This document shows positions 35,238 through 44,153 of a DNA stretch of 44,153 nt, in pieces. The DNA lies in assembly GCA_030622755.1 (NCBI GenBank), contig JAUXFT010000010.1:1-44153 (forward strand), given 5' to 3'. Each line of letters begins with the position of its first letter. Position 1 is the first letter of the stretch. The notes under the pieces are model-generated. The model made no database searches, was not told where the DNA came from, and saw only the letters and a program-made list of their open reading frames with translations. Source of the DNA: Aestuariirhabdus sp. (GTDB lineage Bacteria > Pseudomonadota > Gammaproteobacteria > Pseudomonadales > Aestuariirhabdaceae). The position numbers and the translations under genes were made by a program.

Positions 35238-36569
35238 TTGACGCGTGCGGGACAAGCTCTAGGCTCCCGACTGCTCGCTCTGCAGCCAGCTGAAGTCACC
35301 GTTCAGCTGAAAGAAACGCTGCACGCAGATTTCAGCGTCGTTTTGCCTCAGTGGCTGGCGGCGCAGTCATTGTATCCCAAGCTACTCTGGTCCTCTCGCG
35401 ATGGAAGCAGCCATACGGCCGCCATCGGTGAAGCACTGCGCGTCGATTCCTGTCCGCGCAATGAACAGCTGCAACAAGATCCTCACCAGCGCCTGTACTG
35501 CATCCATAGCTTCGACGACAATCAGCCGCAGTGGCATGATTTCGAACAACAACTCTATTATCTTCCTGACATCGAGATACGTCTGGATGCCGGATGCTGG
35601 AGCCTGCACGTCACCACCTGCAAGCACAGTGACATCACGAAGCTGTACCGCCAGCTCACCAGCATAGCCAGGTTTGACCCTCTGTTTGCAAGTGACCAGC
35701 CAAACCCCGCATTACTCGATAGAACCGACTACCCAAGCCTGAATGAGTGGCAACATTCGGTGGCACAGGCGCAACAACAGATAACGAATCGCTCATTACA
35801 AAAGGTCGTTCTCGCTCGCGAAACTCGCTTGCAGCTAAGTGAACCACTATCATTCTGGGATGCCTTCTTACGGTGGGATCAGCAAGCCATAAACAGCTAT
35901 CGGTTTGCCTATCAAAAATCGTCCGGCAAGGGATTTATCAGTTTTTCACCGGAACGTCTTTTACTTCGTGAAGAAAATAACCTCTTTAGCGAGGCGCTGG
36001 CCGGAACCTGCGCACGCTCGGTCAACGCTGCGACCGCCCGTACCGAAGCGCGCAGGCTTCTCAATGATCCCAAAAACCGCATGGAACATCGTCTGGTCAT
36101 AGATGACATCACCCAAAAGCTTCAACTTCTGGGCGTTCAGGTCAATGACCGCTGTGAAACTTCCCTGCTACAACAACCAAATATTCAACATCTGCATCAC
36201 CTGATTCACGGTCTGGGTACACCTTTACCGGATGACTTGACACTACTTCAACAACTTCACCCAACCGCAGCCATTGGCGGTTTACCCGTGAAAATAGCAC
36301 AGGATTTTATCCGGCAAAACGAGCCCATCAAGCGTGGCTGGTATGCCGGTTACTACGGTTACCTCGGTTTGGAAAAATCAGAGCTGGCGGTTGCCATTCG
36401 CTGTGCGCATATCGACCATAACTTTATATCGCTATATGCCGGAGCTGGAATTATTGAACAATCTGATGCCTTGCTCGAATGGAACGAGCTGGAGCAAAAA
36501 ATCACCGTCCCCCTATCGCTTTTCCTGACCAACCTAGACAATGTTCGCCAACACTCATCGATCTCTTAA
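35238..36569 (+). CDS. menF: Isochorismate synthase MenF
   Basis: First enzyme of menaquinone synthesis: chorismate to isochorismate, Mg-dependent. The 443-residue product has the chorismate-binding C-terminal fold: K189 (SLQKVVLARE, the catalytic lysine equivalent to E. coli MenF K190), ISFSPERLL, E252 in SEALAGT, NRMEHRLVIDDI, HPTAAIGGLP and WYAGYYGYLG. The start is uncertain: TTG 35238 is the first usable codon in frame, but no clear Shine-Dalgarno precedes it. A divergent or translationally unusual start further upstream is possible, since the frame stays open. The 3' end overlaps menD by 29 nt. EntC-like enzymes for siderophores are excluded by the men context. Confidence 0.92.
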   Translation: MTRAGQALGSRLLALQPAEVTVQLKETLHADFSVVLPQWLAAQSLYPKLLWSSRDGSSHTAAIGEALRVDSCPRNEQLQQDPHQRLYCIHSFDDNQPQWHDFEQQLYYLPDIEIRLDAGCWSLHVTTCKHSDITKLYRQLTSIARFDPLFASDQPNPALLDRTDYPSLNEWQHSVAQAQQQITNRSLQKVVLARETRLQLSEPLSFWDAFLRWDQQAINSYRFAYQKSSGKGFISFSPERLLLREENNLFSEALAGTCARSVNAATARTEARRLLNDPKNRMEHRLVIDDITQKLQLLGVQVNDRCETSLLQQPNIQHLHHLIHGLGTPLPDDLTLLQQLHPTAAIGGLPVKIAQDFIRQNEPIKRGWYAGYYGYLGLEKSELAVAIRCAHIDHNFISLYAGAGIIEQSDALLEWNELEQKITVPLSLFLTNLDNVRQHSSIS

Positions 36570-38298
36570 CGAGCTGTGGGCTTCTTTGTTGCTCGAAGAA
36601 CTCGCTCGCCGGGGAGTACAACATTGCTGCCTGGCACCCGGCTCCCGCAGCGCACCATTAGTAATGGCCGCGAGCCGACGAGCTGATTTACAGCTACACC
36701 ACCACTTTGATGAGCGTGGATTGGGCTTCCTCGCCCTTGGAATGGCGAAAGGTAGCCGCCAGCCTGTCGCCATCATTACAACCTCCGGTACCGCCGTCGC
36801 TAATCTCTATCCTGCGGTGATCGAGGCAACCCTCAGTGGCGCACAACTGGTTATCCTTAGCGCCGACCGTCCCCCCGAGCTGCATAATTGTGGCGCCAAC
36901 CAGGCCATCGACCAGCCGGGGTTGTTTGCCCAATACCCAAAACGCAGTCTCTACCTGCTACCGCCTCAGCTCGATCATTCCGCGCGCTCTTTATTAACGG
37001 ATATCGCTGGCGGCATGCAACATATTCAACAATCCGGTGGTGTATTCCACATCAACTGCATGTTTGATGAGCCGCTTTATCCTGATGAGGATGCCACCGA
37101 TGCCTCTGAATGGATCGATACGCTAGGCACATGGAGAACGAATAACGCCCCCTGGCCACTTCCCCCCCCGATACCGGAAGCCAATCCAGTCGCACCCGAA
37201 CAATGGCAACGATTCTCCAGCCAGCCTGGAATAATTGTTGCCGGACGTCTGGATAATACAGCTGATGCCCGGGCGGTTTTAGCCCTCTCGACATCCCTGG
37301 GTTGGCCGCTATTGGCCGATATCCAGTCCCAGCTCAGGGGAGAAACTGTCAGTATCCACTGCGCCGACCTGCTGTTGTGCCAGCCATCGGCCCAAAGACT
37401 CCTGATTGAGCACACGCGGTTGCTGCAGTTCGGTAGTCATCTGGTGTCAAAACGCTTGCAGGAACTGGTTGATTCCGATCATTGGCAAGATTTCTGGCTA
37501 GTGCATGAGAATTCATCACCTCTAGCCCCTGGACGCAATCAAAGCGCTTTCTTCTCATCCAATATTGCGCTCTGGTGTCAACAACGAGAAATCCACCATC
37601 CTCCAGTCAGACAATCCACTGAACGGCTAAAACAACTGGATCGTGAGATGCTCACCAAACTGGATACTTATTTCTCGTCAAGTATCGATAATGCCAGGCA
37701 GCTCAGCGAACCAGTTGTCGCCCGACAAATCTGCAACTTATTACCTCAACGACATCAACTCTTCGCCGGTAATAGCCTCAGTATTCGGCTGCTGGACCAA
37801 TTCTGCGGACAGTTGCCTGACGGTATCCACGTTCTGAGCAATCGCGGTGCCAGCGGAATTGATGGCCTGGTTGCCACCGCCGTTGGCTGTACATTGGTTA
37901 ACGATACGTCGACGACGCTGCTGCTTGGAGATACTTCGCTTCTTTACGACCTGAATTCCCTGGCATTGTTACGACGACACACTCTGCCACTGGTCATTGT
38001 GGTTCTCAACAATAATGGTGGCGGAATCTTTAACTTGCTACCGATCCCGGATCCCGACATTCGTCGACAGCATTTCCAGTGCCCACACGACCTCAGGTTC
38101 GAACAAGCCTGCGCCATGTTTGCGATTGACTACCATGCTCCGGAAAATCTGGGCGAGTTCACCGCATGCTACCAGTCCGCCATCAGTACAAGCACTCCAT
38201 GTCTTATCGAAATCACCTGTGATGGCGCCGAAACAGCACGGATTATTCAGCACCTCAGCACAACCAATCTACTCACCGAATCAACAGCGAGAGCCTAA
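36541..38298 (+). CDS. menD: SEPHCHC synthase MenD
   Basis: Thiamine-diphosphate enzyme joining isochorismate and 2-oxoglutarate to give SEPHCHC, with loss of CO2. The 585-residue product has the pyrimidine-binding half with [11 protein letters not shown] (30-40), [12 protein letters not shown] with the catalytic-type glutamate E58, and [18 protein letters not shown]. The diphosphate-binding half has [15 protein letters not shown] and [11 protein letters not shown]. It overlaps menF by 29 nt and its stop codon overlaps the menB ATG, so coupled translation is likely. Confidence 0.94.
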
Positions 38299-39152
38299 TG
38301 AAATACGGGTTAAATGAAGAACAACTGTACGCGCCTATCGAATGGCAAGACCATAGCGATGGCTATGAAGATATTCTGTACAGCAAAGCAGAAGGCATCG
38401 CTAAAATAACCATTAATCGACCCAGCGTGCATAACGCATTTCGCCCAATGACGGTCCGTGAAATGTCTCGTGCCCTGGACGATGCCCGATACGATGCTGA
38501 CATTGGCAGTATTATTTTTACCGGCGCAGGAGAGCAGGCCTTCTGCTCTGGCGGCGACCAATCCATCCGCGGATCGACCGGTTATCAGGATAGCCAGGGC
38601 AACGAACACCTCAATGTACTCGATCTTCAGCGCCAGATCCGTACCTGCCCCAAGCCCGTGATAGCAATGGTTGCCGGCTATGCCATTGGTGGCGGGCACG
38701 TACTGCATCTGGTTTGTGACCTGACGCTGGCCGCAGATAATGCGCGCTTTGGACAAACCGGTCCGGCCGTAGGCTCCTTCGATGGCGGCTATGGTTCCAG
38801 CTACCTGGCACGAATTGTCGGGCAGAAGAAGGCGCGAGAGATCTGGTTTCTATGTCGCCAGTATGATGCCCGGCAAGCACTGGAGATGGGCCTTATTAAT
38901 GCCTGCGTGCCGCTTGCTGAACTCGAACGGGAGACCGTGCGCTGGTGCCGGGAGATATTACAAAACTCACCAATGGCACTGCGCTGCCTGAAATCTGCAA
39001 TGAACGCCGACTGCGATGGGCAAGCGGGATTGCAGGAGATGGCCGGTAACAGCACCCTGCTGTTCTATATGTCGGAAGAGGCGCAGGAGGGCCGCAACGC
39101 TTTTATGGAAAAACGACGACCAGAGTTTAACAAGTTCAAGCGTTCACCCTGA
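38298..39152 (+). CDS. menB: 1,4-dihydroxy-2-naphthoyl-CoA synthase MenB
   Basis: Crotonase-fold enzyme closing the second ring of the naphthoquinone (o-succinylbenzoyl-CoA to DHNA-CoA). The 284 residues are very similar to E. coli MenB along their length: [94 protein letters not shown] (read piecewise), [20 protein letters not shown] and the C-terminal [13 protein letters not shown]. The conserved active-site Gly and Asp/Tyr regions are intact. In E. coli menH lies just before menB; here menD abuts menB directly. Confidence 0.96.
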
Positions 39153-39162
39153 TAACTGCACC

Positions 39163-40149
39163 GTGAGCCAATTGCCCCTTAGCCGCCAAGCCGCGCTTTA
39201 CCGTTACCGGATACCCTTGTTGGCTCCGTTGCGAATCGGCGACCTGCAACTGAGCGTCCGCGAAGGCTTAGTCGTTGACTTGCAAGAGGGTCAACAACGA
39301 GGCCAGGGCGAAGTTGCGCCTCTCCCTGGATTCAGCAAAGAAACCCTGCAGCAAGCAGCGCAGCAATTAATTGATCAACTGCCACACTGGTTACAAGGAC
39401 GCCAATCGCTATTGACGATTCCCTCTGCGGCCTTCGGGATGGATTGTGCCTGCGCGGAGTTAAGCAACGCAGACGCAATCCCGCTAAATCCTCCCTGTCA
39501 GGGTCATCCCCTACTATCCGGTAGCAATAATAAAATCATCGAACGCTGGCAAAATTGGCAATCCCCACTTCCGGATTTAGTGAAGTTAAAACTTGGCCGC
39601 CAATCGCTCGCCAAAGATATCGCGTTACTGCAAAAGCTTGTTGCTATCAGCCCGGATACGCGATTTCGCATCGATGCCAACCGGGCCTGGACCCTGCAAC
39701 AGGGCATCAGCCTACTGGCAGCCATTCCCAGAGCCTGCATCGACTATCTGGAGGAGCCCTGTCATGAGCTATCCGAAACACTAGCCCTGGCCCAACAACA
39801 ACAGGTATTTATCGCGCTGGATGAGAGTGCCCGGGATGCTGGCTTCAAGCTGCCCGCATCTGTCTGGATCCGCGCGCTGATCCTCAAGCCCAGCCTGACC
39901 GGTTCCATCAACCGTCTAAGCGAGATCACCCGTTCGGCGCAGAGTCGCGGTATCAACGTAATTTTATCCAGCAGTTATGAATCCAGTCTGGGCATCAGCC
40001 ATATACTTCAGCTGAGCCAACAGCTAACACCGCACCAACCGGCCGGCATCGATACGCTTCAGTCTTTCAGCGCTAACCTGCTGCGCACCCGGCAAACGGA
40101 CAAGCCGACCCTTAAACTCTCTGACATGGAGCTGCTATGGCGCAGCTAA
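39163..40149 (+). CDS. menC: o-Succinylbenzoate synthase MenC
   Basis: Enolase-superfamily dehydratase turning SHCHC into o-succinylbenzoate. From GTG 39163, ten nt after menB, the product is 328 residues (E. coli 320) and begins (M)SQLPLSRQAALYRYRIPLL. Catalytic and metal residues are all in place: K141 and K143 in VKLKLG, D171 in RIDANRAW, E198 region in DYLEEPC, D220-E221 in ALDES and K242 in ALILKPSLTG. The frame stays open upstream inside menB, but residues there have no family likeness. No clear Shine-Dalgarno precedes the GTG, which suggests coupling to menB. It overlaps menE by 13 nt. Confidence 0.92.
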   Translation: MSQLPLSRQAALYRYRIPLLAPLRIGDLQLSVREGLVVDLQEGQQRGQGEVAPLPGFSKETLQQAAQQLIDQLPHWLQGRQSLLTIPSAAFGMDCACAELSNADAIPLNPPCQGHPLLSGSNNKIIERWQNWQSPLPDLVKLKLGRQSLAKDIALLQKLVAISPDTRFRIDANRAWTLQQGISLLAAIPRACIDYLEEPCHELSETLALAQQQQVFIALDESARDAGFKLPASVWIRALILKPSLTGSINRLSEITRSAQSRGINVILSSSYESSLGISHILQLSQQLTPHQPAGIDTLQSFSANLLRTRQTDKPTLKLSDMELLWRS

Positions 40150-41543
40150 TCTGCCCTCTATCCAGAGCTGCTAAAAGACACCCACACCATCCCGCAATGC
40201 AATCTGGACAACAGCTGATCAGTTATCAAGCACTCGAGCGCCAGGTGCAGTCAACAGCTCTCGAAATTCTCGAATACGGCGTACAGCCCGGGGATCATCT
40301 GGTCATCATCAGCCGTGACCAACTGCTTATCGCACGTTTGCTCTTCGCGTCACTGCGTCTGGGCTGCGTCACTATCCCTGTTAATCCAGCGCTGCCACCA
40401 ACGCAACAGCAGAACCTGGTGCGTCGTGCAGATGCTCGCTGGCTATACGCCGACCATATCGACTTTGAGTTACCAGCGGAATGTAGGCGCTTGACCAGTC
40501 CTGACCTCGACCTGGCGACTGAAATGCAGGATGGCGAGATCACTATCGACGCAACTTCACCGATCAGCGGCATATTCACTTCCGGCACAACCGGCCAACC
40601 CAAGCTCGCACTGCACAGCTACGCTAATCACTATTTCAGCGCTCAGGGCAGCGCGCAGCAGATTCCTGTACAGCCTGGTGACGGCTGGGCGCTCACTCTG
40701 CCGCTGTATCACATCGCCGGCATCGCCACAGTATTTCGCACCATAATCGCCGGTGCGATGCTGGTGGTTCCTAATACCAAAGACTTGAGGGAGGTTATCG
40801 ACAATCCGCGCGTTACCCATCTTTCCGCCATCAATACACAACTGCTGCGATTGCAACATCAGGATATTGCTCTCGATAGTGGCTCACTGCGCCACCTGCT
40901 ACTGGGCGGTAGTGACTTCGCCAAACCATTGTTGCGATGGCTCAGCACCTTCTCCATTAAAAGTCATATGAGTTATGGACTGACCGAGATGAGCTCGCAA
41001 GTGATGACAGGCCCTGTCAACGATCAATCACGGATAAGCACCCTGCTGCCGTACCGCCAATTGCGCCTCTCGGACAGTGGCGAGATTCTGCTTCGCGGCG
41101 AAACGCTCTGGCTCGGTTATTACCAACAGGGAGAAATTCACCGCCATCTAGACAGCGATGGCTGGTTCCATAGCCGTGACCTGGGTGAACAGGATAGCAG
41201 GGGGGGATTACGTATTCTGGGGCGGCTCGACAATCAGTTCATCTCTGGCGGCGAGAATATTCAGCCAGAAGCCATTGAAGCCATAATTCACTCATTCAGG
41301 GGGATCGATGAATGCTACGTTGTCCCCATTACTGATGAAGAGTACGGACAACGTCCTGTTTGTTTCCTGCGACCGCTGCCTGTCGATCAAGGCGAGGCTT
41401 TGGCGGCATTCCTCAAACCCCGGCTTGCGGTATACCAGCAACCGCTGCGCTATTTTGAGCTCTTACCGGAGCATAACTCAGGCGGACTGAAGGTCAGCCG
41501 GCAACAATTAACCGAGCTGGCGGCGCAACAAGGGAATAGTTAA
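40137..41543 (+). CDS. menE: o-Succinylbenzoate-CoA ligase MenE
   Basis: AMP-forming acyl-CoA synthetase activating o-succinylbenzoate for MenB. The 468-residue product has the superfamily motifs: A3 GIFTSGTTGQPK (about 145-156), A5 MSYGLTEMSS, A7 WFHSRDLGE, A8 GRLDNQFISGGENIQPEAIE, and the C-terminal NSGGLKVSRQQL with the A10-type lysine. The ATG overlaps the menC end. It closes the menFDBCE operon. Later genes for DHNA-CoA thioesterase, menA and the methyltransferase are not in the window. Confidence 0.93.
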   Translation: MAQLICPLSRAAKRHPHHPAMQSGQQLISYQALERQVQSTALEILEYGVQPGDHLVIISRDQLLIARLLFASLRLGCVTIPVNPALPPTQQQNLVRRADARWLYADHIDFELPAECRRLTSPDLDLATEMQDGEITIDATSPISGIFTSGTTGQPKLALHSYANHYFSAQGSAQQIPVQPGDGWALTLPLYHIAGIATVFRTIIAGAMLVVPNTKDLREVIDNPRVTHLSAINTQLLRLQHQDIALDSGSLRHLLLGGSDFAKPLLRWLSTFSIKSHMSYGLTEMSSQVMTGPVNDQSRISTLLPYRQLRLSDSGEILLRGETLWLGYYQQGEIHRHLDSDGWFHSRDLGEQDSRGGLRILGRLDNQFISGGENIQPEAIEAIIHSFRGIDECYVVPITDEEYGQRPVCFLRPLPVDQGEALAAFLKPRLAVYQQPLRYFELLPEHNSGGLKVSRQQLTELAAQQGNS

Positions 41544-41820
41544 CGGTCACTCTATATTCTGTATCTGCTTGTTGATTTTTATTAATTATCCGTTATTAAT
41601 CAGCATGTTATCCACCTTAAATTTTGCGAAAAACTGAATTACCCCCCGATATACTCCCCACTTTTCATGTGCTTATAATCTAAAAGCTCATGATTAATGA
41701 CTCTATTACTTGGCATTCTCTCTCAATATCAGCAGGTGCTTTGCAGTCTCAGAATACTCATGATCGACAGTATTGGGAAATACGTATGCTAAAGGTCAAG
41801 TATATACTCGGTAGGCTTAA
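41544..41820. other. Junction between men operon and mobile element
   Basis: This AT-rich stretch follows menE. I find no tRNA gene, no clear terminator and no recognised attachment site, although the chromosome/element boundary must lie here or inside it. A short frame at 41690-41875 has no likeness to integrase N-termini and is left out. Confidence 0.4.
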
Positions 41821-42702
41821 GTTAAACGTAGTCAGGTCTCAGCCAACCACCATGCTGCCATTGAAAAGATGCTAGTAAGAGCAGCGTTCCCTCTTTTGGG
41901 AGCAATTCCGATTCGAAGCCTCACTCCGCCCATGGTGGTAAATGTATTTCAACCTCTAGCAAAGCAGGGCAAGCTGGAAACCGTGAGGCGGCTGTGTCAA
42001 AACGTCAACCAGATAGCCACCTACGCTGTTAATACCGGTTTACTGCTCAGTAACTCTCTCACAGGCGTGGGGCGTGCCTTTGCTGTGCCTGAAGATAGAC
42101 AAATGGCAACCATCAAGCCCGATCGGCTGCCCGAGTTTATGTTAGCTATGTCTAAATCAGATTTTTACATCGGGGCGCGCTGTCTTTTGTTATGGCAACT
42201 GCATACTGCCGTTAGACCAAATGAGGCTGCAGCGACCCGATGGGATGAAATTGATACAGTTAATGCTTTATGGACAATTCCAGCGTTAAGAATGAAACGT
42301 AAGCGCGAGCATGTAGTTCCGCTTACTTCACAGGCTCTTTCCATTCTCGAGTCTATCAAGCCCATTAACTCTCATTATGAGCATGTGTTCCCACAGCAGC
42401 GTACACCCTCAAATTCAGCTCATGCTCAGACAGTGAACGGCATTATTAAGCGTCACATCAAGTTTGATGGACTTGTATCCCATGAGTTTCGATCAATCTT
42501 TAGCACTGCCGCTAATGATGCCGGTCACCCCCCGCATGTTATTGAAGTGTGCTTGGCTCATGCTGAGGGTAGTCAGTCTTAGAGGTCTTATAATCGTTCG
42601 CAGCTATTGGGGCAACGGCGAGAGGTAATGGATTGGTGGAGCCTCTTTATTATGCAGGCGATGAATCATGAAACTTATATGGATAGCAGAACTTATTTTT
42701 AG
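41821..42702 (+). pseudogene. Broken P4-type tyrosine integrase
   Basis: The reading frame (open from 41821; ATG 41869) matches the core-binding and catalytic domains of P4-like integrases: HHAAIEKMLVRAAFPLLGAIPIRSLTPP (read piecewise), RRLCQNVNQIATYAVNTG, LLLWQLHTAVRPNEAAATRWDEID with the first catalytic Arg, and SHEFRSIFSTAAND with the usual HxxR shifted to HEFR. The N-terminal arm-binding domain is absent (stops at 41812 and 41818). After LAHAEGSQS an in-frame TAG (42580-42582) interrupts the gene. The frame then continues RSYNRSQLLGQRREVMDWW, containing the catalytic tyrosine, to a TAG at 42700-42702. Both defects argue for a dead gene, so the element is probably fixed. Confidence 0.85.
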
Positions 42703-42797
42703 AACTGATAGTTAATAGAAATCACATCGTATCGGCAGAAGGTTGCATAAATAATGAACTATATATGTAAGGCGCTTGCAAAAAGGATCATTCAAGG

Positions 42798-43412
42798 ATG
42801 AGTAAAGAAAAGATGCTGTTTGAGTCATTGGAAATAAAGCTAGAAAAGTGGTTTAAAACACCTTTTGAAAAATTACCTGGTGAAATTGTAAATCGTATTT
42901 CTGAAGGTTTTTTTCCATATGATTGGAGAACTCTTTCTCCAGAGCTAAGGCGGCAGGTAGCTCAGCAGTGGGATGAACAGAATACCCCGGATCTTACTGA
43001 AAGCAGGGAGAGTATGTTCGATGAATTTGTACAGATCGAGTCACTTAAAAAACAACTTGCGCAATGGGAAAACGCAGGCGGTACTTCTGTTGGGGGTTTA
43101 GCCCTTAAGGAGCAGAAGGTTGAGGAATTGAGAGGGAAAATCAAAAATAAATACAGCAGTTTTGAGCATGATCATGGAAAGGGCTCCTATGAGGTAGGAT
43201 CGAAAGAGTGGCGTAAAAAAAATGCCCAGGAAGCGGCCAATGCGCGTCATGCTCAGCCAGGTGGTTCCCATGATAAAAGAAAGTCAATTATGGAAATATG
43301 GTCAACCGGTAAATACAAAACAAAATCAGCGTGTGCTCAGGCTGAGAGTGAAAAGCTGGGAATGTCCTTTAGTACCGCTTTAAAAGCGCTGAGAGAGCCG
43401 AAAAAGAGATAG
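42798..43412 (+). CDS. Hypothetical protein of the integrated element
   Basis: I do not know a function. The 204-residue product is hydrophilic, with a predicted coiled coil (about 72-120), a basic linker with RHAQPGGSHDKRK, and a C-terminal module IMEIWSTGKYKTKSACAQAESEKLGMSFSTALKALR. That module resembles a short domain common in proteins of phage-like islands and looks like a small helix-turn-helix. Codon and base usage are AT-richer than in the men operon. The ATG has AAGGA 9 nt upstream. It stands between the dead integrase and alpA, the spot where satellite elements often carry regulators, so DNA binding is a guess. Confidence 0.65.
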   Translation: MSKEKMLFESLEIKLEKWFKTPFEKLPGEIVNRISEGFFPYDWRTLSPELRRQVAQQWDEQNTPDLTESRESMFDEFVQIESLKKQLAQWENAGGTSVGGLALKEQKVEELRGKIKNKYSSFEHDHGKGSYEVGSKEWRKKNAQEAANARHAQPGGSHDKRKSIMEIWSTGKYKTKSACAQAESEKLGMSFSTALKALREPKKR

Positions 43413-43470
43413 TAGCGAGCCTTTACTTAGCAGGGGCTCGCTACTGCTAAGTAAAGGGTATTTAGATTTT
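43411..43470 (+). promoter_or_regulatory. Two overlapping, mutually exclusive hairpins before alpA
   Basis: Arm A (43411-43421) is exactly complementary to A' (43435-43445), 11 bp. Arm B (43420-43433) is exactly complementary to B' (43444-43457), 14 bp. The order is A-B-A'-B' and each pair of neighbours shares 2 nt, so both stems cannot form fully at once. B-B' is followed by a T-rich stretch (43460-43470, ATTTAGATTTT region), giving it a terminator look, while A-A' would act as antiterminator. The stop codon of the preceding gene lies inside arm A. Confidence 0.6.
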
Positions 43471-43525
43471 TCTTAGCAACGACAACAATCCTCAGCCATG
43501 CAAACAACGCCTAGGAGGCACTAGC

Positions 43526-43741
43526 ATGGCTACAACAATTCTCAGACTTCCAACAGTGAAGTCCCGTACAGGTCTTTCACGTAGTACGATCTATTTGCGC
43601 ATTTCAGAAGGAGGCTTCCCAAAGCCTATCTCGTTGGGTTGTCGTGCCGTCGGTTGGATCGAATCCGAAATCAATGAATGGTTGAATCGACAGGTTGATG
43701 CTAGTCGAAGCAACTCCGTGAAGGGAGGTGCTGAAAAATGA
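43526..43741 (+). CDS. AlpA-family excisionase/transcriptional regulator
   Basis: Small MerR-like helix-turn-helix protein of 71 residues, typical of P4-like prophages and islands. There it activates the integrase gene or assists excision. The motif ILRLPTVKSRTGLSRSTIYLRISEGGFPKPISLGCRAVGWIESEINEWL (read piecewise, residues 5-54) is the classic AlpA pattern. The ATG has a strong AGGAGG 7 nt upstream. Its last codons overlap the primase start by 4 nt (ATGA), so the two are co-translated. Since the local integrase is broken, its role here may be limited to controlling the primase or downstream cargo. Confidence 0.93.
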   Translation: MATTILRLPTVKSRTGLSRSTIYLRISEGGFPKPISLGCRAVGWIESEINEWLNRQVDASRSNSVKGGAEK

Positions 43742-44153
43742 GCCTCTCTATTAATGCGTTTATCGAAGCGATCATTGCTGCTGGACTGCAGCCCCCTTCT
43801 CATATTGAGCCTGAAATTATTTGCCGGTTTCCTGGTAATGGTAAGGGGCGCTCTAATAAATCTGGGTGGTGCATTCTATTTTCTGATGGCTTGGGTGGTT
43901 GCTTCGGCGACTGGTCTGCAGGTTTTACACAATCTTGGAGATCAAACGACACCTTTGTTATGAGCTGTTTCGAGAAACAAGCTTGGAAAAATAAGGTAAG
44001 CGATGCTCGTAGGTTAGAAGCCAAGCTGCGCCAAGAACGTCAAAATAAGGCAGCAGCTAAGGCAGCCAGGTTGTGGGGTTTGTCTCAACATTTGTCGCCA
44101 AATAATCCATATGTTATTCGAAAAAATATCCAGCCATTCGGTGCAAGAGAGTA
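43738..44153 (+). CDS. Phage/plasmid-type DNA primase, N-terminal part (cut by window end)
   Basis: Only the first 138 residues are present; the frame is open at the end of the window. The visible part matches the N-terminal region of toprim-type primases of P4-like elements: INAFIEAIIAAGLQPPSHIEPE, then a FPGNGKGRSNKSGWCILFSDGLGGCFGDW stretch (read piecewise) typical of their nucleic-acid/zinc-like domain, and an alpha-helical RRLEAKLRQERQNKAAAKAARLW segment. It probably supports autonomous replication of the element or is a leftover from it. The ATG overlaps the alpA stop and has GGGAGG 9 nt upstream. Confidence 0.85.
   Translation, partial: MSLSINAFIEAIIAAGLQPPSHIEPEIICRFPGNGKGRSNKSGWCILFSDGLGGCFGDWSAGFTQSWRSNDTFVMSCFEKQAWKNKVSDARRLEAKLRQERQNKAAAKAARLWGLSQHLSPNNPYVIRKNIQPFGARE

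Follow-up and report, generated by a model that had tools for sequence, protein, structure and literature searches.

AlpA has been described as the master regulator in Gram-negative PICIs. In these islands and in P4-like satellites, the genes follow the order int, alpA and replication genes (PMC4936722, PMC10111431), and alpA, which its own promoter region drives, has the key regulatory role (PMC4936722, PMC11773190, PMC10111431). The corresponding zone of described elements, such as AH14b and EcCIMP1, contains an integrase, a variable gene, alpA and replication genes (PMC4936722, PMC11773190, PMC10111431). Neither an operator pair nor a DNA-binding regulator encoded between int and alpA, of the kind proposed below, was found in the PICI and P4-like literature that we searched.

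We analyzed a window of 44,153 nt from an Aestuariirhabdus sp. contig, in which the same zone can be recognized. It consists of a tyrosine-integrase fragment (41869..42582; PF00589, E 3e-21), an open reading frame of 204 aa from the same element, hereafter X (42798..43412), alpA (43526..43741; PF05930, E 2e-21), and a primase-like gene truncated by the contig end (43738..44151; phrog_2249 DNA primase, E 5e-6), all on the forward strand. The int-alpA-primase order is that of a P4-like satellite or Gram-negative PICI; unlike the described elements, the window carries a broken integrase, and the right part of the element lies outside the contig. Specifically, within 41690-42660 the N-terminal part of the integrase is absent and an in-frame stop cuts the protein short of where its C-terminus usually ends; the element therefore appears cryptic. 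The window contains no tRNA gene, and the attachment site is therefore not obvious. Directly upstream of the element is a menaquinone-type gene cluster (35238-41543), which, judged from the sequence, includes isochorismate synthase, menD-, menB-, menC- and menE-like genes. The E. coli element CP4-57 was considered as a yardstick for this zone and set aside, since its gene at the X position, yfjH, lies on the other strand.

The junction between X and alpA is occupied by an array of interleaved inverted repeats on the forward strand. Arm A (AGTAGCGAGCC, 43411-43421) pairs at 11 of 11 positions with arm A' (43435-43445), and arm B (CCTTTACTTAGCAG, 43420-43433) pairs at 14 of 14 positions with arm B' (43444-43457). 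The first-pass annotation had described perfect repeats of 11 and 14 bp that interlock, with the first arm overlapping the stop codon of the upstream gene. Both statements are confirmed: the shared edges are 43420-43421 and 43444-43445, and arm A begins inside the TAG codon (43410-43412) of X. This is the sole interleaved perfect pair totalling at least 18 bp in the window. When the 160 nt ahead of alpA were shuffled 20,000 times with dinucleotides preserved, no shuffle matched its combined helix (stacking) energy; the interleaved feature is real and non-random. Two further features come in addition to the two repeats described earlier, namely a third B copy that matches the motif at 10 of 11 positions (TTTTCTTAGCA, 43468-43478) and a hairpin over the alpA RBS and start codon (43494-43531). 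Copies of the B/B' pattern elsewhere in the same genome are no more numerous than those of a reversed-pattern control, and DNA searches with the region returned no relative, either in 145 nearby genomes or in plasmids.

We propose that these repeats probably form a two-site DNA operator, located between the X and alpA genes of a P4-like or PICI-type element and bound by X. The proposed site 1 (TTACTTAGCAG, 43423-43433, centre 43428) lies within arm B, and the proposed site 2 (CTGCTAAGTAA, 43444-43454, centre 43449) lies within arm B', giving a spacing of 21 bp; arm A' forms the spacer between them. The sites were assigned by homology to L014, a locus of a Thiotrichaceae MAG, which among the relatives sharing this X C-terminus is the closest. 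A gapless alignment of the two loci keeps CTTAGCAG-n-GGCTnGC-nn-CTGCTAAG and GTATTnA, in which CTTAGCAG belongs to site 1 and GGCTnGC to the spacer. The core of B/B', the spacer and the bases past B' are thus kept at the same place in L014, where the equivalents of both sites are palindromes of the form CTGCTwAGCAG. By contrast, L014 offers no partner for arm A, and the A-A' pairing occurs only in the window. Downstream of B', the hexamer TATTTA (43459-43464, forward strand) resembles a -10 element without a -35 match, and L014 has TATTCA at an equal distance from B'. As a possible -10 element of the alpA promoter it is only suggestive, and a sigma-70 scan did not detect it.

The geometry of the array fits this proposal. 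The dyad centres of A-A' (43428.0) and B-B' (43438.5) are offset by 10.5 bp, or one turn of B-DNA, and two reflections 10.5 bp apart generate a 21-bp repeat. Conversely, sites spaced by 21 bp place dyad axes every 10.5 bp, so that a binding protein would meet one face of the helix. Most likely, the A-A' dyad is centred on site 1 and that of B-B' falls between the two sites; at the RNA level they resemble two competing hairpins. Two related palindromic sites lying whole helical turns apart in a putative promoter region, as in tandem palindromic operators, are what we found here. A two-dyad protein-binding site had also been offered earlier, as a second option; it fits much better than the RNA reading discussed below, with dyads one helical turn apart and recurrent 21-bp palindromes.

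To place the 21-bp spacing in a wider frame, we searched the collected loci for paired palindromic sites ahead of alpA and scored these against shuffles, with a cut-off of p<=0.02. In the first locus set, nine loci passed and seven of them had a spacing of exactly 21 bp, a value taken by 4.1% of the best spacings in shuffled sequence. Three or four of these seven had prompted the hypothesis, and L150, L156 and L159 had not. The 21-bp pairs of this set are located at -90 to -106 relative to alpA; across relatives, the range is about -90 to -110. In a second set of 77 loci collected later, eight passed (about 1.5 expected), with a spacing of 20-22 bp in four and of exactly 21 bp in two. Pairs at 21 bp were recorded at L007, L011, L014, L020, L150, L168 and L244, and a detectable pair was absent from most alpA loci scored; across these sequences the pattern appears recurrent, not universal. 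In the window itself the pair is so degenerate that this test does not single it out, and its most likely assignment follows from the homology to L014 together with the dyad geometry. Loopless palindromic sites, of which ACCGAATTCGGT is an example, are better explained by recognition as DNA than by hairpin formation in RNA.

A second relative, L020 from Limnobaculum, encodes an X with an alignable C-terminus and carries an A-B-A'-B' array starting from the TAG stop codon of X, with unrelated sequence and a dyad offset again of 10.5 bp. Its score alone was reached by 67 of 20,000 shuffles, and score plus an offset of 10-11 bp by 2 of 20,000; given that 68 loci were scanned, the replicate of the layout is suggestive to moderate. 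Looking for the same layout in related islands, a check that the first-pass annotation had put forward, showed A-B-A'-B' again in L020 and no A-A' pairing in L014.

The same observations bear on the reading that the first-pass annotation had put first, a translation-dependent RNA attenuator in which termination of X translation blocks arm A, shifts the leader from A-A' to B-B' and changes alpA expression. Its two helices are indeed alternative structures, being mutually exclusive and strong (about -21 to -23 kcal/mol; A-A' -21.7, B-B' -21.1 to -22.7 kcal/mol), arm A overlaps the stop codon in L020 also, and the third B copy supplies a further partner for B'. However, a scan of 42500-44153 detected no terminator-like site, and neither A-A' nor B-B' directly precedes a U-tract. 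The T-rich tract said to follow the second repeat does exist (43467-43471), but it starts 9 nt past B' and does not form a terminator tail. A transcription attenuator would include an intrinsic terminator among its alternative structures and keep its alternative pairings in relatives; we found no such terminator, and the layout is present only in L020. For a translational attenuator, exposure of the RBS should differ between states, yet the alpA Shine-Dalgarno sequence and AUG showed identical predicted pairing in five constraint states, in which A-A' or B-B' was forced or A or 43400-43425 was blocked. A ribosome at the X stop codon, supposed to block A and favour B-B', would cover part of B too. 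Additionally, the sites of most relatives are palindromes without a loop, and interleaved pairs are not general among the alpA leaders examined. Because there is no terminator, the Shine-Dalgarno/AUG pairing is unchanged and A-A' is absent in L014, the attenuator reading is poorly supported, and we consider it improbable.

The candidate binder X has no Pfam, PHROG, NCBIfam or PADLOC match and no viral matches. Its C-terminal domain (about residues 130-204) is predicted to adopt a three-helix, HTH-like fold: AlphaFold models three helices with pLDDT of about 90, and the structural neighbours, all of them weak, are mostly HTH DNA-binding proteins, with a best Z of 4.4 (TrpR). The model is thus compatible with an HTH-like domain. 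This C-terminus is about 46% identical to that of the L014 gene, and a class-wide search with the X domains of the window, L014 and L020 found no additional clear relatives. The X proteins are mosaic, as their N-termini differ between loci, and their C-terminal groups coincide with the groups of sites. Three such groups were distinguished: the window and L014 with CTTAGCAG; L011, L168, L244, L243 and L287 with ACCGAATTCGG; and L007 and L150 with a TGCGG type (CCGCAAyTGC type).

This correspondence was put to a prediction test. A plasmid search with the X domain of L168 alone returned one record, L244 from Legionella adelaidensis, in which ACCGAATTCGG and ACCGAACTC lie exactly 21 bp apart, right after the X stop codon and upstream of alpA. 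With at most one mismatch, CCGAATTCGG precedes alpA in 4/4 X-family loci versus 1/143 others, the motif having been defined from two of these four loci. Moreover, viral contigs were scanned blind for two copies of ACCGAATTC separated by 15-27 bp. Of the 32 non-coding matches among the loci read, 31 had a spacing of 21 bp, and these matches include L253, L287 and L310, which contain X, the array and alpA. Among the viral loci L245-L324, we observed ACCGAATTCGG(T) pairs 21 bp apart, often 10-13 nt past a stop codon. For most ACCGAATTCGG-type arrays in phage contigs, the DNA examined contains no X relative (mostly no nearby X or alpA), so another protein may use such sites. X and its downstream array are adjacent and could be co-inherited.

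The same operator might instead be bound by AlpA, for autoregulation and as accessory sites for excision. In Gram-negative PICIs, AlpA is an activator of its own promoter (PMC10111431, PMC11773190), and the sites immediately precede alpA. A related array also lies directly after alpA in a phage contig (L077:4366-4660), as a two-unit 21-bp repeat of CGGCTAACCCCTGCTwAGCAG, which resembles the L014 array but lies on the opposite side of alpA; this contig was the only informative result of a viral scan for CTTAGCAG-N-CTGCTAAG, which otherwise gave mainly chance matches. However, AlpA does not group with the sites. The GLSRSTIYL helix and 60-70% identity are common to the AlpA proteins of the window, L014, L244, L007 and L150, whose loci represent three site types, so that an identical predicted recognition helix (window, L244, L007 and L150) would have to serve three unrelated sites. 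Reciprocally, the diverged AlpA of L243 is just 25-36% identical to the others, yet the locus retains a ACCGAATTCG site, in one copy. As judged by these alignments, the site sequence tracks the C-terminal domain of X, not AlpA, which makes AlpA an unlikely binder of the operator.

For the proposed X-bound operator, the comparison shows the 21-bp phasing, the position and the match between site and X C-terminus; binding by X, the sign of regulation and the inducing signal are what we infer. Specifically, X, encoded by the element, would bind the two sites via its C-terminal HTH-like domain; the operator would overlap the alpA promoter region, so that binding there would switch alpA and the primase gene. 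Repression appears the more likely sign, and an inducer or helper signal, perceived by the variable X N-terminus, might lift it. By analogy, this arrangement would be like the Stl-type master repressors of SaPIs, with X as the element-encoded DNA-binding protein that would silence the island until a helper signal arrives. In contrast to Stl, X is co-directional with alpA and the putative operator follows its own stop codon; the likeness is functional, and no sequence relation is claimed.

Two further explanations of the repeats were weighed against the X-bound operator. The first takes them as inert, either as a hairpin at the 3' end of the X transcript or as a template-switching by-product. 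Several relatives do have hairpins past the X stop codon without a common layout, and A-A' is window-specific; but the 21-bp phasing and the site sequence are retained across distant elements and a terminator-like tail is absent, which leaves the inert reading little chance. The second takes the array as an immunity locus with an antisense RNA of the P4 CI/C4 type, since P4 also has repeated complementary segments in a satellite operon leader. Here B' would be seqB, and B and the third copy would be seqA and seqC, so that the seqA-seqB-seqC order is reproduced, and RNAs of this type are present in Gram-negative PICIs (PMC10111431). Unlike those loci, however, the window stretch has no covariance-model match to C4, isrK or the int-alpA RNA at E<=5, neither the third copy nor the layout was seen in L014, and the known RNAs occupy another gene zone, all of which renders such a locus highly improbable.

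About 60 nt downstream of the A/B arms, the two-stem hairpin noted above (43494-43531, forward strand) closes the RBS (GGAGG) and AUG of alpA. Covariation supports it: both sides change in 9 of 14 pairs among 11 relatives, a result matched by 0 of 500 shuffles. A covariance model of this hairpin gave 16 matches over the first locus set and six further alpA loci, and in 369 genomes it gave seven matches at E<=1e-4, all seven at alpA genes. Unrelated hairpins cover the RBS at other alpA genes. Translational control of alpA via this leader hairpin, not via the A/B arms, is plausible, and the hairpin, conserved in many alpA leaders, is a candidate new cis-regulatory RNA motif. Covarying on the alpA start and without a match in Rfam 15, it points to a second, translational layer of control. 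Together with the proposed operator, its adjacent candidate binder and the predicted code between X C-terminus and site, what silences and releases alpA becomes testable.

More tentatively, X might represent an unnamed class of master regulators that swap domains and control AlpA-type satellites, a possibility that we hold with some reserve. An exchangeable C-terminal HTH-like domain and the matching 21-bp-phased operator after its own stop codon would then move as one travelling cassette, and alpA would be gated twice, by X on DNA and by the RBS-closing hairpin on mRNA.

Like the leader hairpin, the int-alpA RNA (Rfam RF02996) is an RNA element; in related islands it lies between the integrase gene and alpA. 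Unlike those islands, the window has no match to it at E<=5, and the same library detects a copy at L093:820-888 (75.6 bits), about 600 nt upstream of alpA; L093 has no match to the leader-hairpin model. Finally, a 22-nt imperfect direct repeat (82%) spans the alpA start in the window, with its copies at 43482-43503 and 43532-43553.
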